Shown here piece after piece: positions 185-34,005 of a DNA stretch of 39,383 nucleotides (positions are counted from its first letter, which is position 1; every line of letters starts with the position of its first letter). Under the pieces are notes generated by a model. That model did not search any database. It saw only the letters and a list, made by a program, of their open reading frames with translations, and was not told the origin of the DNA. The position numbers and the translations under genes were made by a program. Origin of the DNA: Lachnospiraceae bacterium (GTDB lineage Bacteria; Bacillota; Clostridia; Lachnospirales; Lachnospiraceae); the NCBI GenBank assembly GCA_015057615.1, contig SVEA01000064.1, positions 1 through 39,383 of the forward strand. The letters run 5' to 3'.

Positions 185-469
185 ATGTTTCAAGTGGCAA
201 AAGCCGGTTGATAAAGCTAACTTCATTAATTTGTACAATTTATGTATTGAAAATTAATATGAAGCAAGTTTTATTTGCAACGCGCAGTCCTGTAAAGCAT
301 TGCAAAAAACGCAATACTTGGGTTGAAGTGCCTAATAGTACATAAGAACACAAAATATGTGGGTCTAAGTACCAACGACTTCAAGCAGTTGCAAATTAAA
401 ATATTACTTAAGTTTTTCCTGGATTTATGCAAATTGAAGATGACGATTTGTTAGGTAGAGAACGATTTT
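185..469 (+). repeat. Family-1 structured intergenic repeat, copy A
   Basis: A roughly 285-bp element shared with intergenic copies at 5.7, 26.6, 30.1 and 33.7 kb. The left terminal sequence is decayed and the right terminal inverted repeat is replaced by sequence carrying the AGGAGG of the next gene. Core hairpins are kept: ATTGC/GCAAT (299-303 with 311-315) and ACTT/AAGT. This is the most diverged of the longer copies. It ends directly at the ribosome-binding site of the flavoprotein gene. Confidence 0.8.
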
Positions 470-482
470 AGGAGGCATTTTA

Positions 483-1811
483 GTGGGATATGATGTCATA
501 ATAGCAGGTGCCGGTGCTTCCGGACTTACGGCGGCAATTGCGGCTGCAAGGATGGGAAGCTCGGTGCTGGTAATTGAGCAGAAGGAGAAAGCAGGAAAGA
601 AAATCTTAGCAACGGGAAATGGAAGATGCAATTTTACCAATCTGGTGCAGAATCCGGAATGCTATCGGTCCGATGATAATGCCTTTGCTATGCGCGTGCT
701 GGAAAGGTTTGATATGCAGAAGACCATTGCCTTCTTTGAAGAATTAGGGATCTGCCCGAAGGAGAAAAACGGCTATTTATATCCGAATTCAGAGCAGGCT
801 GCCAGCGTTGTACAGGTCCTTATGATGGAGTGCAGGCGCCTGGGCGTTCATTTTGCATATAATGAAAAAGTAATTCATATTAACCAGCCATATTATACGG
901 TAATTACGGAACATAGAATTTCTCCGGAGAGGAATGCGGCAGGGAAAGGAAAGAAAGGCTCTAAGGTAAAAAAGAGGCTTCCTCTGGAAGCTGACATGAA
1001 TATAGAGAAAGAGCGGTATAATGCGAAAAAACTGATTCTGACCACGGGAGGATGTGCTTCCTCGAAGCTGGGGTCGGATGGCAGTGGATATCCGCTTGCA
1101 AGGCTATTCGGGCATACAATTATTAAACCGCTGCCGGCTTTGGTGCAGCTAAAATCACCGGAAAACTACTGCAAGACGCTTTCTGGTGTCCGCATGGCAG
1201 GCAAAGTGGGCGCTTATACGAAGGAGGAAAGGCTCCTGGCAGAGGAGAGCGGGGAGCTGATATTTACGGATTACGGGATATCAGGCATTCCTGTTATGCA
1301 GATCAGCCGGTATGTCAGTAAGGCTCTGGATCAAAAGAAAAAGATACTTTTAAAGATCGATCTGCTCCCGGAGAAAACGCTTGATGAGGTGATCCTTCTT
1401 CTTCGTGGCAGGATAAAGAACGCTGCCGGTAAAACGACAGAAGAGATGATGGTCGGACTATTTAATCACAAGGCATCGTATGTTCTGATTAAGGAATCAA
1501 AGCTGGATCCAATGAAGGAGGCAGCAAGGCTAAAGGAACGAGAGGTGGAAGCTTTGGCAAGGATAATCAAGGAGTTCCGTATGGAAATCACCGATACCAA
1601 TTCCTTTGAAAATGCGCAGGTAACCACTGGCGGTGTTGCAACCGGGGAGGTTAAGGAGACGACTCTGGAATCAAAGCGCATGAAAAATCTGTATTTTGCC
1701 GGAGAGCTTCTTGATGTGGACGGTACCTGCGGGGGTTATAATCTTCAATGGGCTTGGAGCTCGGGATATCTTGCCGGAACGGCTGCGGGAAAACGAGCCG
1801 GAAGCAGATAA
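483..1811 (+). CDS. HI0933/BaiN-type NAD(P)/FAD-dependent oxidoreductase
   Basis: A 442-residue flavoprotein of the HI0933-like family (the group often labelled aminoacetone oxidase or BaiN-like). The N-terminus has the FAD dinucleotide-binding motif GAGASGL at about residues 9-15. The family signature ATGNGRCNFTN follows at about 43-53. The C-terminus has TTGGVATGE and the GELLDVDGTCGGYN segment that closes over the FAD. It should be a soluble two-domain Rossmann flavoprotein; the substrate is not known from sequence. The GTG start is supported by AGGAGG at 470-475, seven bases upstream, which sits at the very edge of a family-1 repeat. A lysine-rich insertion lies near residues 145-165. The next gene is a second, unrelated flavoprotein across a 325-base non-coding spacer, so an operon is uncertain. 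Confidence 0.88.
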   Translation: MGYDVIIAGAGASGLTAAIAAARMGSSVLVIEQKEKAGKKILATGNGRCNFTNLVQNPECYRSDDNAFAMRVLERFDMQKTIAFFEELGICPKEKNGYLYPNSEQAASVVQVLMMECRRLGVHFAYNEKVIHINQPYYTVITEHRISPERNAAGKGKKGSKVKKRLPLEADMNIEKERYNAKKLILTTGGCASSKLGSDGSGYPLARLFGHTIIKPLPALVQLKSPENYCKTLSGVRMAGKVGAYTKEERLLAEESGELIFTDYGISGIPVMQISRYVSKALDQKKKILLKIDLLPEKTLDEVILLLRGRIKNAAGKTTEEMMVGLFNHKASYVLIKESKLDPMKEAARLKEREVEALARIIKEFRMEITDTNSFENAQVTTGGVATGEVKETTLESKRMKNLYFAGELLDVDGTCGGYNLQWAWSSGYLAGTAAGKRAGSR

Positions 1812-2040
1812 TATAACAAACAGACAGATAATAGGTTAAATAGACAATAGAATAAATAGGTAATATAGCAGGCAAATAACAGAACAAACAGGTAATAGAT
1901 ATCAATAAAAACAGAGTAGGAAGATAACATAACAAGCAGTAACAAAATAGACAGATAGCAGAATAGATAGAACCAGAACAAATAGAAAACAGAACAAACA
2001 GGTAATAAAATAGGTGACAGAGCAGACATAGAGAAAATTG
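1812..2040 (+). repeat. A-rich degenerate tandem-like spacer with an exact 20-bp direct repeat
   Basis: The spacer between the two flavoprotein genes is built from loose variants of ACAGAYAGATAATAG and ACAAATAGGTAATA. The + strand is strongly A-rich and T-poor. An exact 20-base direct repeat starts at 1878 and again at 1988, 110 bases apart. Stop codons crowd every + frame. The long frames on the - strand are a by-product of this composition. Confidence 0.7.
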
Positions 2041-2136
2041 CGAAGACATTCTCGCTAAATTGTAAACAGTTATCATAGCAGGGTTCTGCAATTACCTTAA
2101 TAATAGACATAGTTTTGAGGAAAGTACAGGTGCAAA

Positions 2137-3738
2137 ATGATTCGAATTTCACAGATTAAGCTTCCGATCCGGCATACGAAGGAGGATATGCTTCAGGCAA
2201 TTGCAAAAGCACTAAGAGTATCCCCCGGGAAAATCCAGGAATATAAGATTATGAAGCAATCAATCGATGCCAGAAAGAATGAAATAAAATACATCTATAC
2301 CGTGGGCGTTACCCTGAATGTGGAAGACGGGAAGGCGGAAGATAGTACGGTAAAGCATAGCCGTAATACGAATGTATCGATAGCGGATGAGACAAGATAT
2401 GCTTTTCATCCCTCCGGTCAGAAGAAGCTATCCCATCGGCCGGTGGTTGTTGGAACCGGTCCGGCAGGGCTTTACTGTGCGTGGCTTCTTGCAAAGCATG
2501 GCTACCAGCCGCTTGTGATCGAACGCGGGCAAGAGGTCACAAAGCGGGTCCAGGCAGTGGAACATTTCTGGAGTACTAAGGAACTAAATCCGGATTCCAA
2601 TGTCCAGTTTGGGGAAGGCGGTGCAGGAACCTTCTCCGATGGTAAATTAAATACCATGGTCAAGGATGTATCCCATCGATATCGGTTTGTGCTTGACAAT
2701 TTTGTTGCACATGGAGCACTGTCCGATATCCTGTATCTGAATAAGCCGCATATCGGCACGGATAAGCTGCGGGATGTTGTTGTCAACATTCGGAACGATA
2801 TTGTACGAATGGGCGGCGAGGTGCGCTTTGGCACCAAATTGACCGATATTATCATAGAAAATGGTGCTTTGAAGCAGATTGAGGTAAATCATAGCGAGCG
2901 AATCCTCTGTGAGGTCTTGGTACCGGCTCTGGGGCACAGCGCAAGGGATACCTTTGCAATGCTGTTAAAACGGGGATTGATCCTATTACCGAAGGCATTT
3001 GCCGTAGGCTTTCGAATCGAGCACCGGCAGACGATGATCAGCCGTTCGCAATATGGTGGAGAGGCAGAGAGTCTGCCGCCAGCCGATTATAAGCTGACCC
3101 ATCAGACACCGGCAGGGCGGGGCGTTTATTCCTTCTGTATGTGTCCTGGCGGGTATGTGGTAAATGCTTCCTCAGAGGCAGGGCATCTGGTCGTCAACGG
3201 GATGAGCAATTACGCCAGAGAAGGCGAAAATGCAAACAGCGCGATCGTTGTAACGGTAAAACCGGAGGATTTTAGTTCGGATCATCCGTTAGGCGGTATT
3301 GAGTTTCAGCGTAACATGGAGCGTATTGCCTATGAAACTGGAAGAGGACTGGTTCCGGTACAATTATTCGGTGACTTGTTACAGAATCAGGACAGTGTTA
3401 CAATAGGCTCTGTCACTCCGAATATTAAGGGCGGATACCGCCTGTCGAATCTAAGGAACTGTCTGCCGGCGAATATTACGGAGGACATTATCGAAGGAAT
3501 TCTTGCCTTCGATAAAAGGATAAAAGGATTTGCCGATCGGGAGGCGGTTCTCTCCGGAGTGGAGTCAAGAACCTCATCTCCAGTTCGGATTTTAAGAAAT
3601 GATCAATTGGAAAGCAATATCACCGGTATCTATCCCTGCGGGGAGGGAGCTGGCTATGCAGGAGGAATTACCTCAGCTGCAATCGACGGAATAAAAGTAT
3701 TCGAAGCGGTTGCTTCGAAGTTCAGTCCCGTTTATTAA
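2137..3738 (+). CDS. COG2509-type FAD-dependent dehydrogenase
   Basis: A 533-residue protein of the uncharacterised FAD-dependent dehydrogenase group (COG2509). An N-terminal domain of about 95 residues precedes the FAD-binding motif GTGPAGL at residues 106-112. It is followed by an ERG segment near 128 and the family-typical GEGGAGTFSDGKLNT at about 160-174. The C-terminus has GEGAGYAGGITSAAIDG, the second FAD contact. No transmembrane segment or signal peptide is seen, so it should be cytoplasmic. The substrate is unknown. The start is the first ATG; the upstream GAGGAAAG is rather far, so the start is less certain than the frame. A weak A/T-rich hairpin follows the stop. The window does not link it functionally to the preceding flavoprotein beyond proximity. 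Confidence 0.87.
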   Translation: MIRISQIKLPIRHTKEDMLQAIAKALRVSPGKIQEYKIMKQSIDARKNEIKYIYTVGVTLNVEDGKAEDSTVKHSRNTNVSIADETRYAFHPSGQKKLSHRPVVVGTGPAGLYCAWLLAKHGYQPLVIERGQEVTKRVQAVEHFWSTKELNPDSNVQFGEGGAGTFSDGKLNTMVKDVSHRYRFVLDNFVAHGALSDILYLNKPHIGTDKLRDVVVNIRNDIVRMGGEVRFGTKLTDIIIENGALKQIEVNHSERILCEVLVPALGHSARDTFAMLLKRGLILLPKAFAVGFRIEHRQTMISRSQYGGEAESLPPADYKLTHQTPAGRGVYSFCMCPGGYVVNASSEAGHLVVNGMSNYAREGENANSAIVVTVKPEDFSSDHPLGGIEFQRNMERIAYETGRGLVPVQLFGDLLQNQDSVTIGSVTPNIKGGYRLSNLRNCLPANITEDIIEGILAFDKRIKGFADREAVLSGVESRTSSPVRILRNDQLESNITGIYPCGEGAGYAGGITSAAIDGIKVFEAVASKFSPVY

Positions 3739-3749
3739 GTATGAAAAAT

Positions 3750-3775
3750 AGGAAAAGAATTTTGAATTTTTTCCT
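3750..3775 (+). terminator. Possible weak terminator hairpin after the COG2509 gene
   Basis: AGGAAAA-G-AATT, loop TTG, AATTTTTTCCT forms an 11-bp stem with one bulge, 12 bases after the stop codon. It is A/T-rich with only a short T tail, so termination would be weak. Confidence 0.35.
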
Positions 3776-3780
3776 TTATA

Positions 3781-3834
3781 GAGTTTGTGTCTCACGCGGC
3801 ATCCGCAAACTCCGGGATAAGCAAAAAGCCGCGT
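3781..3834 (+). other. Interlocked inverted repeats in the proB leader (possible pseudoknot)
   Basis: GAGTTTG (3781-3787) pairs with CAAACTC (3806-3812), and ACGCGGC (3794-3800) pairs with GCCGCGT (3828-3834). The left arm of the second stem lies in the loop of the first, which is the order of an H-type pseudoknot. A third option, GCGG-CAT-CCGC (3796-3806), competes with both. No T-box signature (AGGGTGGNACCGCG) is present. proB starts 16 bases further on. Confidence 0.4.
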
Positions 3835-3850
3835 AGAAAGAGGATAAAGG

Positions 3851-4690
3851 ATGCAAGCCAGGGAGGCACTAAAGAATAGAAAAAGAATTATAATTAAGAT
3901 CGGCTCCTCTTCCTTAACGCATATGGAAACAGGAAGCTTAAATATGGAGAAAATGGAACGGTTGGTTCGGATTTTGACGGATCTGCATAATCAGGGGAAG
4001 GATGTTGTTCTGGTCACCTCCGGTGCGATTGCCGTAGGAAGAAAAGCATTGGGATTTCTGGAACGGCCTACCGAGCGGTCAATTAAGCAGGCATGCGCTG
4101 CGGTCGGTCAGGCGAACCTGATGATGGTATACCAAAAATTATTTGCGGAATATAGCCAGATCGCGGCACAAATACTTATGACAAAGTATACCATGATTGA
4201 TGATATCAGCAGAACGAATGCGCAAAATACCTTTAATGAGCTGTTTCGCATGGGGGTTATCCCGATTGTAAATGAAAATGACACGGTATCCACGGATGAA
4301 TTGGATTTTGGTGATAATGATACGTTATCTGCTATTGTAACCGCATTGGTAGGAGGGGATCTATTGATTCTTCTATCCGACATTGACGGGTTATATACGG
4401 ATGATCCTCACAAAAACACGGATGCGAAGCTGATCTCCTGCGTAACGCAATTTGATGATGAATTGTGCAGTATGGCAAAATCCTCCACCAATTCCCTGGG
4501 GACCGGCGGAATGGCAACAAAGATTTCCGCGGCAAAAATCGCGACCGCTTCCGGTGCAGATATGGTAATTGCAAACGGAGGAAATGTACATAACATAAAT
4601 CATATTATCGAGGGGGAAGAGGTAGGAACCTTGTTCCTGTCCCATAAGAGACCGAACTTTAATGCTCTGGATTATATTCAAACGCACTAG
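3851..4690 (+). CDS. proB: Glutamate 5-kinase, short form without PUA domain
   Basis: First enzyme of proline synthesis: ATP plus L-glutamate to glutamyl 5-phosphate, in the cytosol. It is an amino-acid-kinase fold. The N-terminal KIGSSSL phosphate loop is followed by VTSGAIAVG, then NENDTVST and FGDNDTLSA at about 135-160. SDIDGLYTDDP follows near 180, and GTGGMATKISAAKIA near the end. At 279 residues it stops after the kinase domain. Long forms such as E. coli (367 residues) add a C-terminal PUA domain. The start has an AAAGG-like site close to the ATG. The partner proA lies 1.3 kb downstream, with two small genes and a family-1 repeat between. Confidence 0.95.
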   Translation: MQAREALKNRKRIIIKIGSSSLTHMETGSLNMEKMERLVRILTDLHNQGKDVVLVTSGAIAVGRKALGFLERPTERSIKQACAAVGQANLMMVYQKLFAEYSQIAAQILMTKYTMIDDISRTNAQNTFNELFRMGVIPIVNENDTVSTDELDFGDNDTLSAIVTALVGGDLLILLSDIDGLYTDDPHKNTDAKLISCVTQFDDELCSMAKSSTNSLGTGGMATKISAAKIATASGADMVIANGGNVHNINHIIEGEEVGTLFLSHKRPNFNALDYIQTH

Positions 4691-4761
4691 ATCAGATTAT
4701 TACTAATAATTTTACTGTTTTGTGCAAATGAAAGAAGACTATTTGTTAGAAAGGAGATTCT

Positions 4762-4965
4762 ATGGATCAGAAACAGATTGATCGTATCAATGAATTGTAT
4801 CATAAATCTAAAAAAGAAGGTTTAACGGAGGAAGAGAAGCAGGAGCAGGCAAAGCTTCGTCATGATTATATCGCTGCGGTTCGAAGTAACCTCAGAGGAA
4901 CCTTAGATAAGGTATCCTTTGTTAATCCGGACGGATCCGTAACAAAACCAAAGGGCAAGAATTAA
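4762..4965 (+). CDS. UPF0291/DUF896 (YnzC-like) small protein
   Basis: A 67-residue soluble protein of the DUF896/UPF0291 family, whose B. subtilis member is YnzC. The family features are an N-terminal helical hairpin (INELYHKSKKEGLTEEE) and the segment LRHDYIAAVRSNLRGTLD. A short basic tail follows. The biochemical role is unknown. AAAGGAG lies seven bases before the ATG, a strong ribosome-binding site. It sits between proB and the 5-formyl-THF cyclo-ligase gene, all on the same strand with short gaps, so co-transcription is likely. Confidence 0.93.
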   Translation: MDQKQIDRINELYHKSKKEGLTEEEKQEQAKLRHDYIAAVRSNLRGTLDKVSFVNPDGSVTKPKGKN

Positions 4966-5010
4966 ATTTTCCTTCAATTACACTGATTTTGCCGAAGCTT
5001 GAAGAAAAAA

Positions 5011-5028
5011 ATGAGTGTCAAAAGCCGG
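5011..5028 (+). repeat. Solo family-1 terminal repeat upstream of fau
   Basis: ATGAGTGTCAAAAGCCGG matches the left end of family-1 copies (for example at 30079) but the body of the element is missing. It is followed two bases later by the fau ribosome-binding site. Confidence 0.5.
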
Positions 5029-5043
5029 ACAGGAGGTGATGGA

Positions 5044-5634
5044 ATGACAAAGGAACAAATCAGAAGCGATATGAAGAGGAAGCGAAGTTCTCTGTTGAAA
5101 GCAGAGCATAGAAAACGGAGCAGGTTGATTCATAAGAAATTGTTTGAAACGGAAGCATACCGCCATTGCAGCAGTCTGTTAACCTACCTGTCCTTCGGAG
5201 ACGAAGTAGATACCGGAGAGCTGATCATTAAGGCACTTGCAGATCATAAGAAGGTTTATGTGCCAAGAGTGGATAAGAAAGAGATGGAATTCTATGAAAT
5301 TCCTAATTTGGAGGGACTTATCCTAAGTAAATTTGGAATTCCGGAACCGGAGCCGGATCAGAATCGTATCTTTCCTGCGTCGGTACAAAGCCAGCTAGAA
5401 GATTATCTAATGATCGTACCAGGGCTTGCTTTTGACTTAAGCGGTAACCGGATCGGATATGGCGGAGGTTATTATGACCGCTATCTATCCCGCTATGCAG
5501 GCACCCGGTTTATAAAAACTGCGATAGCGTTTGATTTTCAGTTAATGGATTACATACCGGCGGATGCAGCGGATGTTAAGATGGATTATATTATAACGCC
5601 AACGAGGGTGCTTCCCTTGCAGCTTGGTGAATAG
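5044..5634 (+). CDS. fau: 5-formyltetrahydrofolate cyclo-ligase
   Basis: Converts 5-formyl-THF to 5,10-methenyl-THF with ATP, returning the inhibitory storage folate to the one-carbon pool. The 196-residue length fits the YgfA/MTHFS family. The basic N-terminus (KRKRSS near 10-16) is the ATP-binding start of the family. The nucleotide loop GYGGGYYDRYL lies at about 138-148, preceded by PGLAFD. The start is set by AGGAGGTGAT at 5031-5040, seven bases before this ATG. A longer frame from a TTG at 4999 would translate the solo family-1 end and has no ribosome-binding site. A 394-base gap holding a full family-1 element follows. Confidence 0.93.
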   Translation: MTKEQIRSDMKRKRSSLLKAEHRKRSRLIHKKLFETEAYRHCSSLLTYLSFGDEVDTGELIIKALADHKKVYVPRVDKKEMEFYEIPNLEGLILSKFGIPEPEPDQNRIFPASVQSQLEDYLMIVPGLAFDLSGNRIGYGGGYYDRYLSRYAGTRFIKTAIAFDFQLMDYIPADAADVKMDYIITPTRVLPLQLGE

Positions 5635-5675
5635 ATAAAAATAAATGCAATTATAAATAGATTTCTTTTAATGAA

Positions 5676-5972
5676 ATGATATGAGCGACAAAAGCTGATT
5701 TATAAACTCAACTTCGTCAATTTGCACAATTTATATGTTAACAAGTAATATGAAACAAATTTCATTCGCAACACGTTATTCCCAAAGCACTGCATAAAAC
5801 GTAGTACTTGGAAGAAGTACGTAATGGTACATAAGATCATAAAACACATGATGTACCAACGACTTCAAACAGTTGCGAATTAAAATATTGTTTCCTATTA
5901 CTTACAGTCTTACCTAGATGGTGCAAATTGATGAAGACGATTGGTTAAGAAGGCTTTTGTCACTCCTATCAT
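5676..5972 (+). repeat. Family-1 structured intergenic repeat, copy B (full length)
   Basis: A 297-bp element with terminal inverted repeats: ATGATATGAGCGACAAAAGC on the left and the reverse complement of ATGATAGGAGTGACAAAAGC on the right. It is flanked by AA on both sides (5674-5675, 5973-5974), which may be a 2-bp target duplication. Inside are nested arms: CAATTTGCAC/GTGCAAATTG, AAGTAATATGAAACAA with its near complement, and ATTCGCAAC/GTTGCGAAT, around central hairpins. It fills the fau-proA gap, and proA starts 56 bases after its end. Confidence 0.88.
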
Positions 5973-6028
5973 AAAATGATTAGGTAACGAAGAGATATAA
6001 AATAAATGGATACGAAAGGCGGGGTTCT

Positions 6029-7276
6029 ATGAGTGATTTGATATCGATTGGACAACGTGCAAAGAAAGCATCGATCAACCTGGGTAAAATGATGCAGGAA
6101 GAGAAGAACCGGATACTTACAGCTTGTGCAAATGAGCTGATCGATCGGCAGGCAGAAATTATGGAAGCGAATGCAAAGGATGTTGTGGCTGCAGAGAAGA
6201 AAGGCGTAAAAGCCTCTTTGATTGACCGCCTTCATTTGACACCGGAGCGGCTTAAGGCTATGGCGGACGGATTACTTGAAATTACTGCCCTGCAGGATCC
6301 CATCGGCGAGGTTCTCTCCATGAAGGTTCGTCCGAATGGACTTACCATAGGGCAGAAGGTGGTGCCTCTGGGTGTCATTGGCATTATTTACGAATCGAGA
6401 CCAAATGTTACCGCAGATGCCTTTGGATTGTGCTTTAAGACGGGAAACGCTGTTATTCTAAGGGGCGGCAGTGATGCGATTCATTCCAATAGGGCAATCG
6501 TAAAAGTATTAAGAAATGCGCTTTTCGAAGGCGGCTGTACTCCGGATGCCGTACAGCTGATCGAAGATACCTCAAGAGAAATTGTCGTGGACTTTATGCG
6601 TATGAACCGGTATATCGATGTTCTTATTCCGCGGGGCGGTGCCGGTTTGATAAAAACAGTTGTGGAAAATAGTACGATACCGGTAATTGAGACGGGAACC
6701 GGTAACTGCCATATTTATGTGGATGAATTTGCCGATTTTCCCATGGCGCTTGCAATTATTGAAAATGCAAAAACGCAGCGGCTTGGAGTATGCAATGCCT
6801 GTGAAAGTCTGGTCGTTCATGAGAAAATCAGCAAAGAATTTATTCCACTGTTGATGGAACGGCTTTTAGCTAAAGGGGTAGAAATTCGCGCGGATGAAAG
6901 AGCCTGCAAAATCAGCAATGCTTGTGTACCTGCAACCGAAGAGGATTATAAAACCGAGTACTTAGACCGGATCCTCTCGCTAAAAATCGTGGATAGTATT
7001 GAGGAGGCGATCACTCATATCAATTACTATAATACGAAGCATTCGGAAGCAATTATAACGAAAAGCTATGACAATGCGATGAAATTCCTGAATGAAATCG
7101 ATGCTGCCGCAGTATATGTGAATGCTTCTACCCGGTTTACGGATGGGAACGAGTTCGGCTTTGGTGCGGAGATCGGAATTAGTACGCAGAAGCTTCATGC
7201 AAGAGGACCAATGGGGTTGAAAGCCCTTACGACGACTAAATATATTATATTTGGAAATGGGCAGATTCGAGAGTAA
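6029..7276 (+). CDS. proA: Glutamate-5-semialdehyde dehydrogenase (gamma-glutamyl phosphate reductase)
   Basis: Second step of proline synthesis: NADPH-dependent reduction of glutamyl 5-phosphate to glutamate-5-semialdehyde. The aldehyde-dehydrogenase fold is clear. [11 protein letters not shown] lies at about 121-131 and [11 protein letters not shown] at about 144-154. IPRGGAGLI lies near 200-208, and the catalytic cysteine is C255 in [10 protein letters not shown], the same number as in E. coli ProA. A length of 415 residues is normal. GGCGGGG precedes the ATG. The gene is separated from proB by ynzC-like, fau and a family-1 repeat, so a local promoter or readthrough from proB is possible. 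hflK follows after 28 bases. Confidence 0.96.
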
Positions 7277-7304
7277 CGAAAGAAAAAAAGAAGGAGGTAA
7301 GTGA

Positions 7305-8294
7305 ATGGAGGATAAAAACGTTTATGATTTTCCATCGGGAAAAAACCTGAGGGGATATCTTAAGAAATTCAGCAAGATTGTATTACTCCTGGTTCTCATT
7401 ATTCTTGCATCCATTGTTATATTTGGATCCTTTTATACAATAAAGGAGCAGGAACAGGCGGTAGTTACAACCTTTGGCAGGGCGAAGACGGTAAGTGCGG
7501 CAGGGCTTCATTTTAAGATACCTTTGATACAGCGGGTTGAGAAAGTGGATACAACGATTCACGGCTTCCCGATCGGTTATAATGAGGATACGAATGTATA
7601 TGTCGACGATGAAGCAATGATGATTACGAGGGATTTTAACTTTGTTAATGTTGATTTCTATGTGGAATATAAAGTATCCGATCCGGTTAAGGCTCTGTAT
7701 GCTTCCCAAAAACCGATTACCATATTAAAAAACATAGCACAGAGCAGTATTCGTATGGTGGTTGGCAGTAATGATGTGGATAGCGTAATCACGACAGGTA
7801 AGAATGAAATTCAAGCACAAATTAAGGATGCTATTCTAAAAAAGCTGGAGGAGCATGATATCGGTATCCAGCTGGTTAATATCACGATTCAAGATGCGGA
7901 ACCGCCAACAGAAGCTGTTATGGAGGCTTTCAAATCCGTTGAGACTGCAAAACAGGGAAAAGATACGGCAGTGAATAATGCCAATAAGTACCGGAACGAG
8001 AAGCTCCCGCAGGCGGAGGCAGAAGTAGATCAGATTCTACAGCAAGCCGAGTCTGCAAGAACGGAAAGAATAAATGAAGCGGAGGCTGAGGTTGCCAGAT
8101 TTAATGAAATGTATAAGGAATATAGCAAATATCCTCTTATTACAAAGCAGAGAATGTTTTTTGAAACAATGGAGGATGTTCTTCCTTCCCTAAAGGTTAT
8201 TATTGATAGTGACGGTTCCGGCGTACAAAAGATTCTACCCCTAGAACCTTTATGGAATCAGGAGGGGAAGGCCTCCGTAAGAGAGGAGAAATAA
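7305..8294 (+). CDS. hflK: HflK-type SPFH membrane protein
   Basis: A 329-residue SPFH/band-7 protein. One N-terminal transmembrane segment (about 24-45) is followed by the band-7 domain starting YTIKEQEQAVVTTFG. A long charged helical part (about 210-275, alanine/glutamate-rich) is typical of stomatin-like oligomerisation. In E. coli, HflK and HflC form a complex around the FtsH protease and modulate it. Here the pair is identified by order, size and sequence type, and no ftsH is in the window. AAGGAGGT sits six bases before the ATG. hflC starts two bases after the stop, so the two are surely co-translated. Confidence 0.9.
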   Translation: MEDKNVYDFPSGKNLRGYLKKFSKIVLLLVLIILASIVIFGSFYTIKEQEQAVVTTFGRAKTVSAAGLHFKIPLIQRVEKVDTTIHGFPIGYNEDTNVYVDDEAMMITRDFNFVNVDFYVEYKVSDPVKALYASQKPITILKNIAQSSIRMVVGSNDVDSVITTGKNEIQAQIKDAILKKLEEHDIGIQLVNITIQDAEPPTEAVMEAFKSVETAKQGKDTAVNNANKYRNEKLPQAEAEVDQILQQAESARTERINEAEAEVARFNEMYKEYSKYPLITKQRMFFETMEDVLPSLKVIIDSDGSGVQKILPLEPLWNQEGKASVREEK

Positions 8295-8296
8295 TT

Positions 8297-10244: not shown

Positions 10245-10261
10245 TTTACAATGTGTTTAGA

Positions 10262-10338
10262 GATTACTTAAGTTTTTTCTTGCTTTGTGCAGATTGATGA
10301 AGACGATTTGTTAGGAAGGCTTTTGTTACTCATATCAT
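10262..10338 (+). repeat. Family-1 repeat, right-end fragment (copy C)
   Basis: Only the 3' quarter of the element is present: the GTGCAGATTGATGAAGACGA arm and the right terminal repeat ending in ATCAT. It lies right after the M14 gene and is followed within 13 bases by a family-3 repeat, so two repeat types are stacked before miaB. Confidence 0.75.
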
Positions 10339-10350
10339 AATATAAATTGG

Positions 10351-10478
10351 CTGAATAGTCTCACAAAAGAACTGCGAATCCAAAGCCTTGCTTAAATGCA
10401 AGGCTCGAGAAGAATAGTAAAAGAACAACTATTCTTCGAAACTTATGCCCAAAAAACGTGGGCGTTTAGCATGAATAG
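10351..10478 (+). repeat. Family-3 hairpin repeat, copy 3a
   Basis: This is the best-preserved copy. Three hairpins follow one another: GCCTTGC/GCAAGGC, GAAGAATAG/CTATTCTTC (perfect, 9 bp) and GCCCA/TGGGC. It begins CTGAATAGTCTCACAAAAG and ends GCATGAATAG, 14 bases before the miaB start. Confidence 0.75.
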
Positions 10479-15263: not shown

Positions 15264-15270
15264 TCGGGAT

Positions 15271-18828: not shown

Positions 18829-19857
18829 TTATATATGATCGGCGATCGTGTAGATCAATTTCTCAGATTCCTCCCAATCAAGACAGGGATCGGTAATGGA
18901 TTTGCCATAGACATGTCCATTGACCTTTTGATTTCCACCCTCGATATAGCTTTCAATCATAACCCCTTTCACATATTGCGCGATCTCTGAAGAAATCTTG
19001 CGGCTATGAAGCACTTCCTTAACAATTCTGGGCTGTTCCTTGTAGTCCTTGTTCGAGTTGGCATGATTTGCATCCACAATGATGGCATGATTTTGTAAAT
19101 TACGCTCCTGATACATATTGACCAGCCGGATCAGATCCTCATAGTGGTAGTTTGAGATGGACTGACCATGCTTATTAATGGCTCCTCTTAAAACCGTATG
19201 TGCAAGGGGGTTACCGGAAGTAACCACTTCCCATTTGCGATAGAGGAAGGTATGGCTCGCCTGGGCAGCAACAACGGAATTAAGCATAACGGAGAAATCA
19301 CCGCTGGTAGGATTCTTCATTCCGGCAGGTACATCCATCCCGCTGATGGTAAGACGGTGCTGCTGATCCTCAACCGATCGTGCTCCAACAGCTACATAGG
19401 ATAGAACATCCTCTATATAGGGCCAGTTCTCCGGATACAGCATCTCATCCGCAGCGGTTAACCCGGTCTCCGCAATGGCACGAAGATGCATTCTTCTCAT
19501 GGCTTTTAAGCCTTCCTGTAAATCCGGTTCCTTCTCCGGATCCGGCTGATGCACAATTCCTTTATAGCCCTCCCCCGTTGTTCTTGGCTTGTTTGTATAT
19601 ATTCTTGGTATCAGAATTAATTTGTCCTGAACCTTATCCTGAACTTTCGCCAGACGGGAGATATAATCACACACGGAATCTTCATTATCTGCGGAGCATG
19701 GTCCGATAATAACTAAAAATCGATCCGATGCACCGGTTATTACATCTTTGATCTGCTGGTCTCTTTCTTTTTTTCGAAGTACATCTTTTGCCGAAAGAGG
19801 ATATGCTTTCACCAGTTCTTCCGGTGAGATCACTTCTTGAATAAATCTAAAACTCAT
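18829..19857 (-). CDS. aroF: 3-deoxy-7-phosphoheptulonate synthase (DAHP synthase), class I
   Basis: Committed step of the shikimate pathway: phosphoenolpyruvate plus erythrose 4-phosphate to DAHP. The 342-residue protein is of the E. coli AroF/G/H type. It has IGPCSADN at about 51-58 with the metal-ligand cysteine C54, PRIYTNKPRTT, KNPTSGDF and VDANHANSNKD. The family length is about 350 and includes the N-terminal extension that usually carries feedback control by aromatic amino acids. The second ATG is used because AGGGAG lies nine bases upstream; the first ATG (19866) touches that site. It is the only - strand gene in the window and has a strong promoter. No T-box or leader peptide is seen. 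Confidence 0.95.
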   Translation of the reverse strand: MSFRFIQEVISPEELVKAYPLSAKDVLRKKERDQQIKDVITGASDRFLVIIGPCSADNEDSVCDYISRLAKVQDKVQDKLILIPRIYTNKPRTTGEGYKGIVHQPDPEKEPDLQEGLKAMRRMHLRAIAETGLTAADEMLYPENWPYIEDVLSYVAVGARSVEDQQHRLTISGMDVPAGMKNPTSGDFSVMLNSVVAAQASHTFLYRKWEVVTSGNPLAHTVLRGAINKHGQSISNYHYEDLIRLVNMYQERNLQNHAIIVDANHANSNKDYKEQPRIVKEVLHSRKISSEIAQYVKGVMIESYIEGGNQKVNGHVYGKSITDPCLDWEESEKLIYTIADHI

Positions 19858-19887
19858 TTTTGTCATCTCCCTATTTGTTGTTGCTAT

Positions 19888-26619: not shown

Positions 26620-26627
26620 TTATACGA

Positions 26628-26872
26628 ATTGACTTCATCAATTTGCACAATTTATGTATGGCTAAGTAATAGAAAACATATTTCATTCGCAACCCGTTGT
26701 CTCACAATGCACTGCATAAAACGCAGTACTTAGATTGAAGTACGTAATGGTATATAAGGCCACAAAATACGTGGATCTAAGTACCAACGACTTTAAACAG
26801 TTGCTTATTTAAATATTGTTTTCTTTTAATTAAATAGTTCCTTGCTTTGTGCAAATTGAAATTTGTGAATGA
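26628..26872 (+). repeat. Family-1 structured intergenic repeat, copy D (both ends lost)
   Basis: About 245 bp aligning to the inside of the element: CTTCATCAATTTGCACAATT at the left and TTTGTGCAAATTG at the right. Both terminal repeats are missing. The ACTGC/GCAGT (26711-26715 with 26723-26727) and CCAC/GTGG hairpins are intact. Confidence 0.82.
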
Positions 26873-27019
26873 AATATGACGAATAAAGAGATACAAATAG
26901 AACTATTATGAAAAATATAGCAGCATTATTAAAAAATTCTAAAAAATACTGAAACTTTTTCCATGTCTTAATCGTTTCTATATATAGAAGCAATTATGTA
27001 CAGAAAAAGGGTGGAAAGT

Positions 27020-27250
27020 ATGAAGAGAGTGATTCAGAGGTACCGTTTTAGTAAATACAACAGATTTACCAATGGTTTACTATTTGCTGTTATATCAATG
27101 ACTGCTTTATTTTTATGTATATCCGATATTTATAATAAAGCGGTAACCGGATTTGAAATTATGTTTCCCTTTATGATCGCATTAATCAGCATGTTCCTTG
27201 GATTTCTATCAATGTTTCATAGTAATGGTAGAGCCGAAGGAAGTATATAG
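27020..27250 (+). CDS. Small two-helix membrane protein, unknown function
   Basis: A 76-residue hypothetical protein. A basic N-terminus (KRVIQRYRFSK) is followed by transmembrane helices at about 18-36 and 44-65 and a short polar tail. I recognise no family. The ATG after GGTGG is preferred to the ATG eight codons upstream (26996), which has no site. The upstream gap holds a truncated family-1 repeat. A terminator-like hairpin follows about 80 bases after the stop. Coding status is supported by the site, the two clear helices and the lack of overlap, but it is not certain. Confidence 0.6.
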   Translation: MKRVIQRYRFSKYNRFTNGLLFAVISMTALFLCISDIYNKAVTGFEIMFPFMIALISMFLGFLSMFHSNGRAEGSI

Positions 27251-27332
27251 ATAAGGGTAAATCGTGATAAAGCCAAGGCGAATTCGTCAGTCAAAGATGG
27301 ACTGTCACAAAACTACATATGGTAAGCGTAAG

Positions 27333-27377
27333 GCAGACTTCAATACCGTGATATAAGGTATCGGAGTCTGCTTTTTT
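27333..27377 (+). terminator. Intrinsic terminator after the small membrane protein
   Basis: GCAGACT/AGTCTGC outer stem and ATACC/GGTAT inner stem, followed by six Ts. The T run is also the left arm of the next inverted repeat. Confidence 0.8.
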
Positions 27378-27505
27378 ATCGTATAGTAAATTGCGTTCTA
27401 TACGATAAAAAACGCTCCGCTAAGGATGCGCACTCGCTCGTAAGGTATTTATCTGCCTGAGGCAGAACGCGCTCGGCCGAGAGTTTGCATTGGCAAACTC
27501 TTTGT
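27372..27505 (+). repeat. Family-2 multi-hairpin repeat, copy 2b
   Basis: Opens with a perfect 15-bp inverted repeat (27372-27386 with 27398-27412, 11-base loop). It continues with CTGCC-TGA-GGCAG, the loopless palindrome CTCGGCCGAG and GAGTTTGC/GCAAACTC. Compared with the 38-kb copy, the ACGAATAC and CATACGAAC hairpins are missing. The rest of the gap up to 27611 is A/T-rich without a gene. Confidence 0.75.
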
Positions 27506-27611
27506 TAAGCGTTTCACAATGCCTGTGATAGAAATTAGCAAGCGGCGGTGTGGAAAATAATCATATATTTTATAATATATACCAATTTATTCTGCTAATT
27601 AGCTAAATAAC

Positions 27612-27640
27612 TTGAAAATCCAAGAAAAATTTGTTAAAAT
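27612..27640 (+). promoter_or_regulatory. Promoter of the chemoreceptor gene
   Basis: TTGAAA (27612-27617), 17 bases, TAAAAT (27635-27640). This is a sigma-A-type promoter rather than the flagellar sigma-D type often found before chemoreceptors. Confidence 0.65.
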
Positions 27641-27706
27641 AGTTCTGTTCTAACATAATGCGACACGATAAAAGTGAATAACTAACCAAAGAAGGTGGGG
27701 GTCTCT

Positions 27707-29860
27707 ATGGAAAAAGACTTAAAAATACGACCAGTATTTGAAAAACTAAAATCAAATGAATCTAATATCATCAAAAAACCCGAGTACTCTTTTCAACCGG
27801 AAAGTAAAACACTCATGGGTAAAATACTTGGCAGTATACGGTATAAACTATTGATTTCCTTTTTTCTGCCAATTATTTTTATTGTTATTTTAGGCTTGGC
27901 AGCCTATAGTAGTGCTTCGAAGGCAATCGTATCAACGTTTAAGGATTCCATGATTAATGTAATCAATTCAACCGGTAATTACTACGGGGTAATTATGCAG
28001 ACGATTGAAGATAAAGCAACACAGCTTTCTGTTGATACCAATGTATTGAACTACTATAGCAAAATGTATAAGGATGAAATTGTAGACGAAGCGGATGTAT
28101 TTAAAAAAATCAAGAATATCGTCTCCAATATGGCATTATCCGATAAATACATAGAAAATATCGCGATATTTACGGATTATGGCCAGCCAGTCAGCTCCTA
28201 TGGAAGTTTCACGGATAAGAATCCTTTTGAAACCTTTAAAACCACAGAAGAATCTGACTGTATTATGAACAGCTCGAATAATATGGTATGGACAGGATAC
28301 CACAATTACATGGATGAACAGCTTGGAATTAACCCGGACAGCTATGCCATTTCCGTATCAAAAAAATATTTGAATAAATCGGCAAGCCATATTGGCTATA
28401 TCCAGATGGATATTAACCAGAATATGGTTTCAGAAACCCTTCGCTCTCTTGAGCTTCCGGAAGGCAGTGTGGTAGCCTTTATTTCTCCGGATGGAAGAGA
28501 GATAACCGGAGAAGGGGTTACGGAAGAAGCTCTGTTTGTAGATAAAACATTTTATGAATATGCAAAATCAGGCGAAGAGAAGAACAATAATAAAACGGTG
28601 GATTTCAAGGGCAAGAATTATATGTTTATTTATTCGAAAATTGGGGAAACCGGAGCCATGGTCGGAGCTTTGGTTCCATCAGCAGCGTTGACCAATAAAG
28701 CAAATTCGATTAAGCTGATGACGGTAGCAATTGTCATTATAGCATCACTGATTGCAGGATTTATCGGTGTTACGGTTTCTTCCGGCATGGATAAAGCAAT
28801 GAAGAGCTTTAACATCACCCTGGCGAAAGCAGCAGACGGGGATTTGACTGCTACGATTCATACGAACCGGAAGGATGAGTTTAAAATATTATCCGACAGT
28901 ATCAACGGTATGATCGGCAATATGAAGAATCTCATAACAAAGTCAGCCAATGTCGGAACTACTGTTATTCGTTCATCGAAGTATGTGACGCAAAATTCGG
29001 AATTGCTGCTCGTCGCGTCCAAGGATATTTCCACCGCAATCAGTGAAATTCAGGAGGGTATCACACAGCAGGCATTGGATGCGGAGAAATGCTTACGGCA
29101 AACGGATGAGCTTGCCAATCAGATCAATCTCGTACAGGAGCATTCCAAATCGATTGCACAGATCGCATCGAATACCAAGCAGGTAGTTGGCAATGGTATC
29201 GGGGAAGTAGATCAGCTCAACAGCGCAACAAAGGCAAATATTGATATAACCAATCGAACCATTAAAGATATTGAGGAACTGGAAGCAGAATCCAAAGAAA
29301 TTACGGAGATTATTTCAGTGATCAATGATATTGCAGCACAGACAAACCTCTTATCCTTAAATGCCTCCATTGAAGCGGCAAGAGCAGGAGAGGCAGGCAG
29401 AGGATTTTCAGTTGTTGCAGAAGAGATCCGTAAGTTATCCGAAAAATCGGTTGGAGCCGCATCGGAAATTGAAGGCATTATAACGCATATTACGAAGAAG
29501 ACAAAGAACACGGTGGAAACCGTTAAGCAGACGGAGACAATTTCAAAGACCACAGAAGCAAGACTGCAGGAAGTTGTTAAATTATTCAATAACATCAATA
29601 TTCATGTAGATGACTTAGCGGATAAGATGGATCGGATCGTCGATATAATCACTGATATCAATAAAGCAAAGAATGATACGCTAAATGCAATTGAAAGCAT
29701 TTCTGCGGTTGCAGAAGAAACTTCTGCAGCTTCAGAAGAAGTGGATGCTACGGCACAGCAGCAGCTGGAGTCAGTAACCAAGCTAAATGCAGCAGCGCAG
29801 ACATTAAGGAATGAGACCGCAGAATTGGCAGCTTCAATCAAATTATTTAAGGTTGATTAG
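27707..29860 (+). CDS. Methyl-accepting chemotaxis protein (transmembrane chemoreceptor)
   Basis: A 717-residue chemoreceptor. An N-terminal cytoplasmic tail of about 44 residues precedes TM1 (about 45-66). An extracellular sensing region of about 260 residues, probably a double Cache domain, is followed by TM2 (about 336-358), a HAMP domain and a long signalling coiled coil. The hairpin tip that binds CheA/CheW is clear: [20 protein letters not shown] and [13 protein letters not shown] at about 541-575. The ligand is unknown. The ATG is spaced correctly from GGTGGGGG. It has its own promoter and a strong terminator, so it is a single-gene unit. No che or flagellar gene is in the window. Confidence 0.93.
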
Positions 29861-29922
29861 GAAAATATAAAAATTTCTATTGAATCGACGTTTGATGAGC
29901 TATTCTGTGTGAAGAAAGGCAT

Positions 29923-29960
29923 ATCGGTTATGGTAGATATTTTATCATAACCGATTTTTT
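29923..29960 (+). terminator. Intrinsic terminator after the chemoreceptor gene
   Basis: ATCGGTTATG (29923-29932) pairs perfectly with CATAACCGAT (29946-29955), followed by TTTTTT. Confidence 0.92.
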
Positions 29961-30078
29961 CTATGTCCCGAACCGAACGGGCTGCTGTAATATAAATGCG
30001 AATGCTGCAAGAAGAAGAAAATACTTGATTATTTAGCGCGAAGCTATTATCATAGTTAATATCCGATATAAGACAAAC

Positions 30079-30379
30079 ATGATCTGAGTGTCAAAAGCCG
30101 ATTTATAAGCCAACTTCATCAATTTGCACAATTTATATGTTGACAAGTAATATGAAACAAATTTCATTCGCAACCCATTGTTCTCAAAGCATTGCATAAA
30201 AACGCAATACTTGGGTTGAAGTGCGTAATGGTACATAAGACCACCAAATACGTGGTCTAAGTGTCAACGACTTCAAACAGTTGCACATTAAATATTGTTT
30301 CATATTACTCTGGTTTTCCTTAATATGTGCTAATTATAGAAGACGATTTGCTAAGAAGGTTTTTTGACTCTCGAATCGA
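30079..30379 (+). repeat. Family-1 structured intergenic repeat, copy E (full length)
   Basis: A 301-bp element. The left end is ATGATCTGAGTGTCAAAAGC and the right end is the reverse complement of TCGATTCGAGAGTCAAAA. AC flanks both sides (30077-30078, 30380-30381). Nested arms and all three core hairpins are present (ATTGC/GCAAT, ACTT/AAGT, GACCAC/GTGGTC). The following gene's GGAGG begins ten bases after the element. Confidence 0.88.
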
Positions 30380-30402
30380 ACATTAGATGGAGGAAGATTA
30401 CA

Positions 30403-30933
30403 ATGAAGAATGAGAAAAAGAATGTTGAGAAGAAAGCGGCTGCTTTCAATCCTCAAAAGAAACGGATAATTGTCGGAGGAATCATTGCCGCTGCGGTACT
30501 TCTTATGGTTGTATTAATGTTTATTGAGAACTCACAGGGCAAAATTGTAATATCAAATAATACGGGGACCAAAATTGAATATGTGCAAGTTTATTTTGTC
30601 GGTGCAGAAGGACCGCTTCATGAGGGCTTCCGTGTAGATGATTTAGAGGTTGGTAAAGCGCAGCGTTTTCCGATCGGAGAGAATAAACTTCTTGGTGCAG
30701 AGGCTAATTTAGAGGTTCGGTTTAAATTTGAAGGCTCTGAGGAAGTGTTCGTTGATTCCGGTTACTTTAATGATACTTTTCATGGCAATATCACCGTGGA
30801 CTTTACTCCTTCCGAGGAAACAGACATCGTTAATCTGCATGTAAAAGCAGCCAATGGTTTATTAAAATCCAATCTTATTGATTGTAACGATGAATTTAAA
30901 ATCAATATTGCAGAAGGATATGAGGTGGAATAA
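30403..30933 (+). CDS. Membrane-anchored hypothetical protein
   Basis: A 176-residue protein I do not recognise. A lysine-rich cytoplasmic tail (1-21) is followed by one transmembrane helix (about 22-41). An extracellular domain of about 130 residues follows, rich in beta-strand-like alternation (VISNNTGTKIEYVQVYFV, VRFKFEGSEEVFVDSG), with no cysteine pair or catalytic motif. The ATG lies nine bases after GGAGG. An over-long frame beginning at 30364 runs back into the family-1 repeat and is rejected. The aconitase-family gene follows after 97 bases in the same direction; a functional link is not evident. Confidence 0.75.
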   Translation: MKNEKKNVEKKAAAFNPQKKRIIVGGIIAAAVLLMVVLMFIENSQGKIVISNNTGTKIEYVQVYFVGAEGPLHEGFRVDDLEVGKAQRFPIGENKLLGAEANLEVRFKFEGSEEVFVDSGYFNDTFHGNITVDFTPSEETDIVNLHVKAANGLLKSNLIDCNDEFKINIAEGYEVE

Positions 30934-31030
30934 TCGATCTCGATCTTTGGTGTTTTACAAAATGTTAGGGATAGAATAAGACACGGACACTCCATGATGC
31001 GCAAAAAACCACGCAGAAATGAGGTAAATG

Positions 31031-33322
31031 ATGATTAAATTATATAAAAATGGTGTTTATCTGGTAAATGGCTCTGAAATTATTGAGGACCAGCCGAAAG
31101 CAGATTTGCAGATACAAGCCGAAACAGGGCTTTCTAAGGTCACCAAAGAGGATGCAAAGCAAGGGACGATCGCCTATGGAATTTTAAAGGATCATAACTG
31201 CTCGAAGGATATTCATAAACTACAGATAAAATTTGACAAATTAACTTCCCATGATATTACCTTTGTAGGAATTATACAAACAGCGAGAGCGAGCGGGCTG
31301 GAAAAATTTCCAATGCCCTATGTCCTGACGAACTGTCATAACAGCTTATGCGCTGTCGGCGGTACGATTAATGAGGATGATCATATGTTTGGACTATCCT
31401 GTGCAAAGAAATACGGCGGTATCTATGTTCCACCTCACCAGGCGGTCATTCATCAATTTGCCCGTGAGATGTTAGCTGCTGGCGGAGCAATGATCTTAGG
31501 ATCCGATAGTCACACCCGTTATGGCGCTCTTGGCACCATGGCAATGGGAGAGGGCGGACCGGAGCTGGTAAAACAGCTGTTGAATCGAACCTACGACATT
31601 CTGATGCCGGAGGTTGTCGGTGTCTACCTGACCGGAGCGCCGCGCAAGGGAGTAGGCCCTCAGGATATTGCGCTGGCAATTATTAAGGCGGTATTTGCCA
31701 ACGGCTATGTGAAGAATAAAGTGATGGAATTTGTCGGTGACGGTATAAAAAATCTATCCGTTGATTACCGTATCGGTATCGATGTTATGACAACGGAGAC
31801 GACCTGTCTATCCTCAATCTGGCAAACGGATCAGGCAGTGAAGGAATTCTATGAGATTCATAAGAGACCGGAGGATTATAAGGAGCTGCAACCGGACCGG
31901 GTAACCTATTATGACGGTATGGTATATGTGAATCTGTCCGAAATCAAGCCGATGATTGCTATGCCGTTCCACCCAAGTAATGTATATACCATTGATGAGC
32001 TGAATGCGAATCTATATGATATTTTAGATGAGGTAGAGAAGAAAGCGTTAATCAGCCTGGATCATACGAAGGTAACCTATACCCTGAAGGACAAAGTCCG
32101 TAACGGCAGATTGTATGTAGAACAGGGAACCATTGCCGGCTGTGCCGGGGGCGGATTTGAAAATATATGCGATGCCGTTGATATACTGGATGGCAAATAC
32201 ATTGGTTCGGATGAATTCTCTCTGAGCATCTATCCCGCAAGCCAGCCGGTATTTATGGAGCTGGTTAATAACGGTGCGGTTGCAAAATTAATGGAGACTG
32301 GTGCAACTATCCGTACCGCCTTCTGTGGCCCCTGCTTTGGTGCTGGGGATGTTCCCGCGAATAAGGGCTTAAGTATCCGCCATACGACGAGAAACTTCCC
32401 GAACCGTGAGGGCTCCAAGATTACGAACGGGCAGATTGCATCCGTTGCCTTAATGGACGCAAGATCCATTGCTGCGACCGCTGCTAACCAAGGTTACCTA
32501 ACCTCTGCGGAGGATATTGATGTTACTTTCAAAAAGCCGAGCTATTATTTTGACAGCAAGATCTACGAGAATCGGGTATACAATGGAATTGGCAAAGCGG
32601 ATCCTTCTACAGAGCTTAAATTCGGTCCTGGAATTGTAGACTGGCCAGCGATGTCGAAGCTGTCGGAGGATATGATTCTAAAGGTCGTATCCGTGATCTA
32701 TGATCCGGTTACGACAACGGATGAGCTGATCCCTTCCGGAGAGACTTCCTCCTACCGGTCGAATCCATTGGCATTAGCGGAGTTTACACTTTCCCGTAAA
32801 GATCCCGCGTATGTGGATCGTGCCAAGGCAATCCAAATGGCGGAGAAAGCCCGGATTGCAGGAGAGAAAATAACATCTGCCAATGAGGAACTCAGGCTGG
32901 TATACGATACCATTGCCGGGCAATTTGCTATCGACCCGGAGAAGACCCAGATCGGAAGCACCATCTATGCGGTGAAGCCAGGGGATGGCTCTGCAAGAGA
33001 GCAGGCAGCAAGTTGTCAGAAGGTGCTGGGAGGCTTTGCTAATATAGCGAAGGAATATGCGACAAAGCGGTATCGCTCCAACTTGATCAACTGGGGTATG
33101 TTGCCGTTCCTTTATAACGGAGAGCTGCCGTTTGAGAACGGTGATTATTTGTTTATCAAAGACATCAAAAAGGCAGTTGCCGATAAACATTCCGAGATCA
33201 AAGTCTATGTTGTTAATAAAGGAATGAAGGAGTTTACCCTAACTTTAGGGGATCTGACGGACGATGAAAGAAAAATCATTCTAAGCGGCTGCCTGATCAA
33301 CTACTACCGGGATCGCATGTAA
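31031..33322 (+). CDS. Aconitase-superfamily hydratase (YbhJ-like)
   Basis: A 763-residue aconitase-fold protein. The three iron-sulfur ligands are in place: C371 ([10 protein letters not shown]), C432 and C435 (CGPCFGAGD), with nearly the same spacing as mitochondrial aconitase. Substrate-binding [19 protein letters not shown] lies near 158-176. The swivel domain carries GSARE where aconitases have GSSRE. Overall it resembles the E. coli YbhJ group of putative hydratases more than AcnA/AcnB, so I do not assign citrate isomerisation. The start is the second of two adjacent ATGs, six bases from GAGG; the first (31028) is possible. It ends before a strong terminator. Confidence 0.85.
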
Positions 33323-33511
33323 CGTTCGATCCTGTTTGTAATCATAAAGCTAGTTTTTGAATGACTTATGACTCTTATACAAAACGATACGCTTGCTTCA
33401 AGCGAGAATACAATATTTATAAAGGCTTTCTTTGAAACGAATTGGAAACAAAAAGATTAGATGAAAAAGTAAGGGAATTTAAAAAATTCATTTATCGTTT
33501 AAAGCAAAATA

Positions 33512-33565
33512 AGGGTCTGTGATCTTCCTGTAATACACGGTCTGAAGGAAGGTCACGGACCTTTT
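33512..33565 (+). terminator. Intrinsic terminator after the aconitase-family gene
   Basis: AGGGTCTGTGATCTTCCT pairs with AGGAAGGTCACGGACCT (one bulge, G-U pairs), then a short T run. The stem is about 17 bp. It lies 190 bases past the stop. A small CGCTTG/CAAGCG hairpin at 33391-33405 lies in between. Confidence 0.8.
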
Positions 33566-33701
33566 GTATTGAGGAAAGATAAAATACAGCGGATCTAAAT
33601 AAACAATAAAAAGCAAATATTGGCATACTTAACAATAGCATTCTTTATGATATCAGTTACAATTAGTGTATGGACCAGTATTGGTTTATTAAATTTCATA
33701 C

Positions 33702-34005
33702 ATGATTTAGGTGTCAAAAGTCGATCTATATATTAACTTCATCAATTTGCACAGTTTATACATGGATAACAGTAATAGGAAACATATTTCATTCGCAACA
33801 CGCAGTTCCGCAAAGCATTGCACAAAACGCAATCCTTGGATTGAAGTACGTAATGGTACATAAGGCCACAAAATACGTGGTCTAAATACCAACGACTTCA
33901 AACAGTTGCGCATTAAAATAATGCTTCCTATTACTCGGGTTTTTCCTTGCTTTGTGCAAATTGATGAGGACGATTTGGTAGGAAAGCTTTTGACTCTCAA
34001 ATCAT
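33702..34005 (+). repeat. Family-1 structured intergenic repeat, copy F (full length)
   Basis: A 304-bp element. Its ends are ATGATTTAGGTGTCAAAAG and the reverse complement of ATGATTTGAGAGTCAAAAGC, flanked by AC on both sides (33700-33701, 34006-34007). Inside are a perfect 14-bp arm pair CATCAATTTGCACA/TGTGCAAATTGATG, the pair AGTAATAGGAA/TTCCTATTACT and the core hairpins. The GH94 gene starts 28 bases after it. Confidence 0.9.

Follow-up and report, generated by a model that had tools for sequence, protein, structure and literature searches.

We analyzed a 39,383-bp stretch of Lachnospiraceae DNA (contig SVEA01000064.1) in which a repeat of about 300 bp, called family 1 here, recurs several times in the same orientation. 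This stretch, the window, is the whole of contig C42 of a draft genome of 4.07 Mb in 215 contigs. Its long open reading frames (ORFs) lie on the + strand except the one at 18829-19866, as judged by eye. Family 1 occurs seven times here, three times complete, twice damaged and twice as a right-end fragment (see the table). The six copies reported in a preliminary description, near 185, 5676, 10262, 26628, 30079 and 33702, are real: all were matched by an nhmmer profile built from 53 copies of the genome, among them the longer copies of the window, although the one near 10262 is a right-end piece. The weaker fragment stops inside AGAAAGGAG, shortly before the ATG (4762) of a 67-codon ORF.

Table. 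Family 1 copies in the window and the folded module inside them. TIR, terminal inverted repeat; R1, covariance model of the module (see text).
Feature	Position	Strand	Score	Remarks
Family 1 copy, damaged	177..479	+	nhmmer E 8.8e-79	limits are those of the profile match; TIR scan: left TIR from 187, 15/19 kept, right TIR degraded
Folded module in the 177 copy	310..397	+	R1 57.9 bits, E 1e-12	
Family 1 right-end fragment, weak	4698..4754	+	nhmmer E 1.1e-4	
Complete family 1 copy, 293 bp	5678..5970	+	nhmmer E 7.5e-92 (match 5667-5985)	TIR pair
Folded module in the 5678 copy	5793..5881	+	R1 64.3 bits, E 1.5e-14	
Family 1 right-end fragment	10262..10336	+	nhmmer E 1.3e-16 (10262-10351)	TIR, 16/19 (TIR scan)
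Family 1 copy, damaged	26620..26860	+	nhmmer E 8.9e-75	no recognizable TIRs in TIR scan
Folded module in the 26620 copy	26722..26809	+	R1 72.3 bits, E 8.1e-17	
Complete family 1 copy, 297 bp	30081..30377	+	nhmmer E 1.8e-93 (30070-30395)	TIR pair
Folded module in the 30081 copy	30203..30289	+	R1 78.9 bits, E 1e-18	
Complete family 1 copy, 300 bp	33704..34003	+	nhmmer E 2.8e-100 (33688-34018)	TIR pair
Folded module in the 33704 copy	33821..33914	+	R1 82.3 bits, E 1.1e-19	

The ends of family 1 are GATWTGAGTGNCAAAAGCC and its complement, which form pairs of terminal inverted repeats (TIRs) in all three complete copies of the window and in further copies of the genome. The preliminary description had recognized these repeats but started them 2 bp too far out. 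Because the two extra bases at each end belong to the target duplication, its lengths of 297, 301 and 304 bp for the complete copies come down to 293, 297 and 300 bp, and its flanking dinucleotides (AA, AC, AC) were mis-measured. Among 42 TIR-bounded copies of 240 to 320 bp from this genome, a target site duplication (TSD) of 6 bp was exact in 10 (shuffled mean 0.35, maximum 4) and one of 7 bp in 5 (shuffled mean 0.13, maximum 2); in the remaining copies the duplications are decayed or of other lengths. A dinucleotide TSD was therefore rejected in favor of duplications of 6 to 7 bp, which beat shuffles.

A 19-nt core pattern, with up to 3 mismatches allowed, was found 270 times in the genome (132 and 138 on the two contig strands), or about once per 15 kb, whereas its reversed control gave 0 + 0 matches. 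None of 39 copies in a 439-kb sample, and 1 of 108 in a larger list, lay inside a called ORF; since ORFs made mostly of the element were removed before counting, the figures could overlook a short gene interrupted by a copy. The longest listed ORF within a complete copy (33707-34000, minus strand, 97 amino acids) had no Pfam match at E up to 0.1, in keeping with the absence of an encoded transposase. The near-palindromic fold of the 33704 copy goes far beyond chance both as RNA (z -9.3) and as DNA (z -7.0), with none of 200 shuffles equaling it in either form. The TIRs, the TSDs and the number of core matches support the view that family 1 is a non-autonomous miniature inverted-repeat transposable element (MITE). 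No Rfam family matched the window at gathering score, and a permissive scan of seven loci (E up to 5) gave 10 hits, all to miRNA families and below their cut-offs. Literature searches in an open-access library likewise turned up nothing relevant to the element or its module, and the view that it belongs to no named family is supported.

Some further observations concern the surroundings of the copies. By eye, copies of the repeat are located close to many contig ends of the draft genome. Another short repeat, GTAAGGTATTT...CAGAACGCG, occurs at window positions 27-66 and 27438-27477 (88% alike over 40 bp) and also adjoins a family 1 copy in L002. A contig labeled Sedimenticola sp. (L053) carries an exact 20-nt core and is perhaps mis-binned.

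A second family of elements in the same genome was first picked up by the family 1 profile over a shorter stretch. Family 2 has the ends GTTACTGTTCACACC and is about 200 to 205 bp long. Its ends (up to 2 mismatches) had 139 matches in the genome, compared with 7 for the reversed control, and its TSD is 8 bp long, being exact in 10 of 22 elements and within one mismatch in 16 of 22 (shuffled means 0.46 and 0.75). Plus-strand blastn of the family 1 consensus against one family 2 element returned one significant match (56 bp, 78.6%, E 1.9e-10); the next-best matches had E values of 1.1 or worse, leaving the module alone in common. The ends of the two families are thus unrelated, and the center of both is a module of about 94 nt predicted to form a three-way junction. 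Their folds agree even where the stem letters differ on both sides, as in P3a, which reads TGAAGT/ACTTCA in one and TGCATT/AATGCA in the other.

Stem P1 closes the module, which further contains a tiny hairpin, P2 (near CGCTYTCGC), and a long one, P3/P4; the latter has recurring bulges and an A.A mismatch, and its loop is often of AAAAYAC type. The 27 sequences of alignment A1 were picked with a regular expression that required GGTA.ATAAG and AAGT, and the invariance of these stretches is partly a product of that choice; two-sided changes were found in 15 of the 28 pairs (shuffled mean 9.7). Covariance model R1 had 102 matches in 88 loci of relatives, some of them overlapping. Aligning these matches gave 84 distinct rows with 94.7% of cells paired, in which 27 of 28 pairs have changed on both sides and the covariation score is 0.680, compared with 0.198 for shuffled versions and at most 0.112 for the best slid version. 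Clustering of 148 rows at 75% identical pairs left 51 clusters, a few of which are poor partial matches, with 1248 Watson-Crick, 19 G-T, 10 A-C and 98 other cells and 53 gaps. A stem that had seemed invariant, GGTAC/GTACC, is replaced by CCCTAC/GTAGGG in genome G154 and by CAGTAC/GTACTG in G365. By eye, P2, the bulges, the A.A mismatch and an AAA.AC loop recur in most of the 51 clusters, the loop being substituted in some (G154, G064, L129). Covarying stems, the usual mark of a functional RNA, are present; they fit RNA and single-stranded DNA alike and do not separate the two.

The search was extended to relatives of the window's genome. R1 was found in 19 of 34 genomes of the genus (E up to 0.001) and, in a sample of the order, in 48 of 392 genomes and 25 of 173 genera, all within the window's family (E up to 0.01); as 10 candidates were scored per genome under strict filters, presence and copy numbers in the order are lower bounds. 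Model R2, built on alignment A2, matched 11 of 391 genomes of a class-wide sample (E up to 0.001), again all in the window's family, which contributed at least 16 genomes, 5 of them listed without a match. No module was found in the other families of that sample. Related Lachnospiraceae of many genera carry the module.

In the loci examined from other genera, the module mostly lies at the apex of a palindrome with other ends, such as TATACTTTATTGTTTTATG in G331 and AGGYRATTGCGAAACTC in G325. Similar ends were seen at L119 and L127, as well as at L108 and L110 of the window's own genus, and the palindrome is weak in some loci (L117). Conversely, a 120-bp MITE family with ends much like those of family 1 has no module. 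Two of its copies (L059:9250-9369 and L068:14701-14820) align at a score of 115 of 120, a third is nested inside a family 1 copy (L066:8760-9194), and one of the three has an exact 6-bp duplication, which suggests that family 1-type ends move without the module. Pieces of 50 to 73 bp with such ends are also module-less; two of the shortest elements resemble, by eye, deletions between CGATTT repeats.

Genome G006 has extra hairpins of P3c/P4 type in tandem after the module. One of its loci (L244:2974-3804) is a tandem array with seven module or half-module matches in about 830 bp, made up of repeated composite elements. Blastn found no phage match for a 300-bp copy and no plasmid match for the 94-nt core. 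Two viral contigs do carry the module; they share ORFs, and their insertion flanks are those of locus L027 of the window's genome, so that they look like one prophage with a family 1 insertion. In one of them the insertion spans L243:2490-2840, with flanks matching L027, and lies beside genes that we take, from their protein sequences, to be of phage tail type.

We then considered the orientation of the module relative to genes, counted in gaps between same-direction genes with ORF calls from a simple script; the copies behind these counts are not independent of one another. For the window's genome, 108 copies were typed from 123 matches, with duplicates and some contig-end rows excluded, and "family 1" denotes copies that are not family 2 by a pattern. 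Family 1 was sense in 45 cases and antisense in 7 (p 7e-8; an initial count by profile gave 25:4), the rest of its 79 copies lying in 10 divergent and 7 convergent gaps, at 9 edges and, once, inside an ORF. Relatives of the same genus behaved similarly (22:4, p 5e-4; the rest of 35 being 5 divergent, 2 convergent and 2 edges). Family 2 showed no clear bias (5:9, p 0.42; the rest of 29 being 8 divergent and 7 edges), nor did other genera (17:10, p 0.25; the rest of 50 being 10 divergent, 9 convergent and 4 edges) or a further, partly overlapping set without G154 (9:7). In G154 all nine were antisense (0:9, p 0.004), accounting for 9 of its 11 known modules. With no clear bias in family 2 and other genera and a reversed one in G154, the bias is group specific. 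The fixed orientation noted in the preliminary description is thus only local, the core lying on both contig strands genome-wide, and what remains of it is the sense bias. Its reading as a sign of a role holds for family 1 and same-genus relatives and fails for family 2, the other genera and G154.

Letters resembling TTAGGAAGG lie near the right end of family 1, and the G154 elements have a GGAG-like stretch at the end towards the next gene; that both might serve as ribosome sites is only an idea. G154 modules (L216, L217, L218, L228, L229) are squeezed between tandem genes. At L219, L223, L224 and L226, facing module pairs lie between convergent genes, and in most cases a module shares the strand of the gene upstream of it. 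In about 32 loci of G006 (48 hits), no strand switch by chromosome half was seen by eye.

Taken together, these comparisons show a MITE-like family and a predicted folded module that is common to families with unrelated ends and was found in one bacterial family only. Judged by sequence comparison, the module is a conserved folded cargo of several mini-transposon families of this bacterial family. The retained role proposed in the preliminary description is upheld for the core, in a different form: the core is a module shared by elements with unrelated ends and by other genera. We consider it probable that the elements are MITEs moved in trans by different transposases and that they carry a separately conserved folded module acting in single-stranded form, as DNA or RNA. 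Family 1 would be copied in trans by a transposase encoded elsewhere, as its TIRs and 6-7 bp duplications indicate, and its arms would form a long hairpin with the module at the apex. Because elements that differ from family 1 in their ends and in their duplication length have the module at their apex too, it is not the recognition site of one transposase. Most likely, the module would work when a hairpin is extruded during replication or transposition, and the extruded hairpin may be bound by a protein of the host or the element. More tentatively, and with somewhat less than even confidence, we propose that the module has been taken up by unrelated mini-transposon families and acts as single-stranded DNA or RNA through a protein partner still to be discovered, whether selfishly or usefully.

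Several points weigh against this interpretation. The 84-row alignment was made by fitting to the model and is biased in its favor, and the cells count sequences and not events. Of eight short elements with family 1 ends (TIR1), one of which (L188) does contain the module, three have an exact 6-bp duplication, a number also reached by shuffles (maximum 3), and one has an exact 7-bp duplication, a total little above shuffles. No insertion sequence with matching ends came to light: one IS66 and five DDE_Tnp_1 loci of the genome, from the two transposase families searched for such ends, lacked a TIR pair and had only four lone weak end matches. A matching partner would carry GATWTGAGTG or GTTACTGTTCAC ends. 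Visual inspection of 100 of the 139 family 2 end matches revealed no long-spaced pair. In 29 loci from other genera, 54 ORFs adjoin the module; no Pfam family occurred in more than 3 of them, and among the 25 neighbor families listed, out of 87, there is no transposase.

A role as DNA appears somewhat more likely to us than a role as RNA, and the evidence is divided. The module has 28 one-sided changed cells (one member of a G-U pair) and 628 two-sided ones, whereas S-adenosylmethionine (SAM) riboswitches from 20 loci of the same bacterial family have 18 and 30 (Fisher 3e-11). That some copies have become perfected palindromes points the same way, since they are expected from DNA that folds and is copied by template switching. 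The argument for DNA is indirect, as the SAM control is far less diverged, cells are not independent, and the G-U shares are little apart (20 of about 600 cells for SAM, 19 of 1375 ungapped cells for the module). The rarity of G-U pairs was therefore dropped as proof of DNA and kept as a pointer only. In 65 family 1 copies of the window's genome, one-sided changes to G-T and A-C number 62 and 42 in the core and 227 and 195 in the arms, so there is no clear strand-specific selection on individual copies, and the strong sense orientation (45:7, 22:4) would fit an RNA role. A close rival reading is that the module is a functional RNA, transcribed with neighboring genes or as a small RNA, that shapes transcript processing or prevents polarity and so makes insertions tolerable. 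Its covarying structure with recurring loop letters, the sense bias of family 1 and same-genus relatives and a slight excess of G-T over A-C (36 versus 20, p 0.04) speak for it. We nevertheless hold it to be rather unlikely, given the rarity of G-U intermediates and the orientations in family 2, in the other genera and in G154.

It is improbable, in our view, that the module has no function and merely marks an old MITE lineage with a slow center and swapped ends, its covariation arising from the correction of palindromes by template switching. The perfected copies would suit this reading as well. Among the same 65 copies, the core is not strikingly slower than the arms (module blocks 6-9% off the consensus, arms 5-14%), and a first hairpin specific to family 1 is 11-16% off. 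Template switching, however, would remove bulges, loops and the A.A mismatch, all of which, by eye, recur in most of the 51 clusters. Least probable of all, and very unlikely, is a hairpin like those of repetitive extragenic palindromic (REP) sequences, recognized by a Y1 (HUH) transposase of the IS200 or REP-associated tyrosine transposase (RAYT) type. The bulged hairpin P3c is often preceded by GTAG, GTAA or GCAG, of which we take GTAG to resemble REPs, and G006 has P3c-type hairpins in tandem. Against this, Y1_Tnp, remnants counted, occurs within the genus in 10 of 19 genomes that have the module and in 8 of 15 that lack it (Fisher p 1.0). In the window's genome it is reduced to a 57-position remnant, and it is absent from G004, which has 61 module hits. 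A partner of this type is thus not supported, and TSDs of 6 to 8 bp argue for DDE enzymes.

Among known systems, the HEARO or omega RNAs of IscB are likewise structured repeats without ORFs in many copies; the searches against Rfam described above set the present elements apart from them. BOX elements of pneumococcus are similar as modular intergenic repeats with a foldable part, but are not known to have a TIR and TSD anatomy like that described here. REPs and bacterial interspersed mosaic elements with RAYT share the bulged hairpins, the tandem copies (as in G006) and the intergenic location, but the present elements are TIR-bounded with TSDs and have no association with a Y1 transposase in the genus. 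Bacterial MITEs such as Correia of Neisseria and RUP of pneumococcus are short, non-coding, intergenic and foldable, with TIRs, TSDs and high copy numbers, all as found here. MITEs are usually seen as ends with a disposable filling. Here it is the filling that stays conserved and the ends that vary, a pattern that extends to at least 25 sampled genera, with copies in the hundreds in the window's genome. This makes it testable what recognizes the fold of the module and whether the element, the host or both benefit. A covariance model is also now at hand for this unannotated repeat. What distinguishes these elements from the known MITEs is a central folded module that recurs across many genera, in families that have neither related ends nor a TSD length in common.

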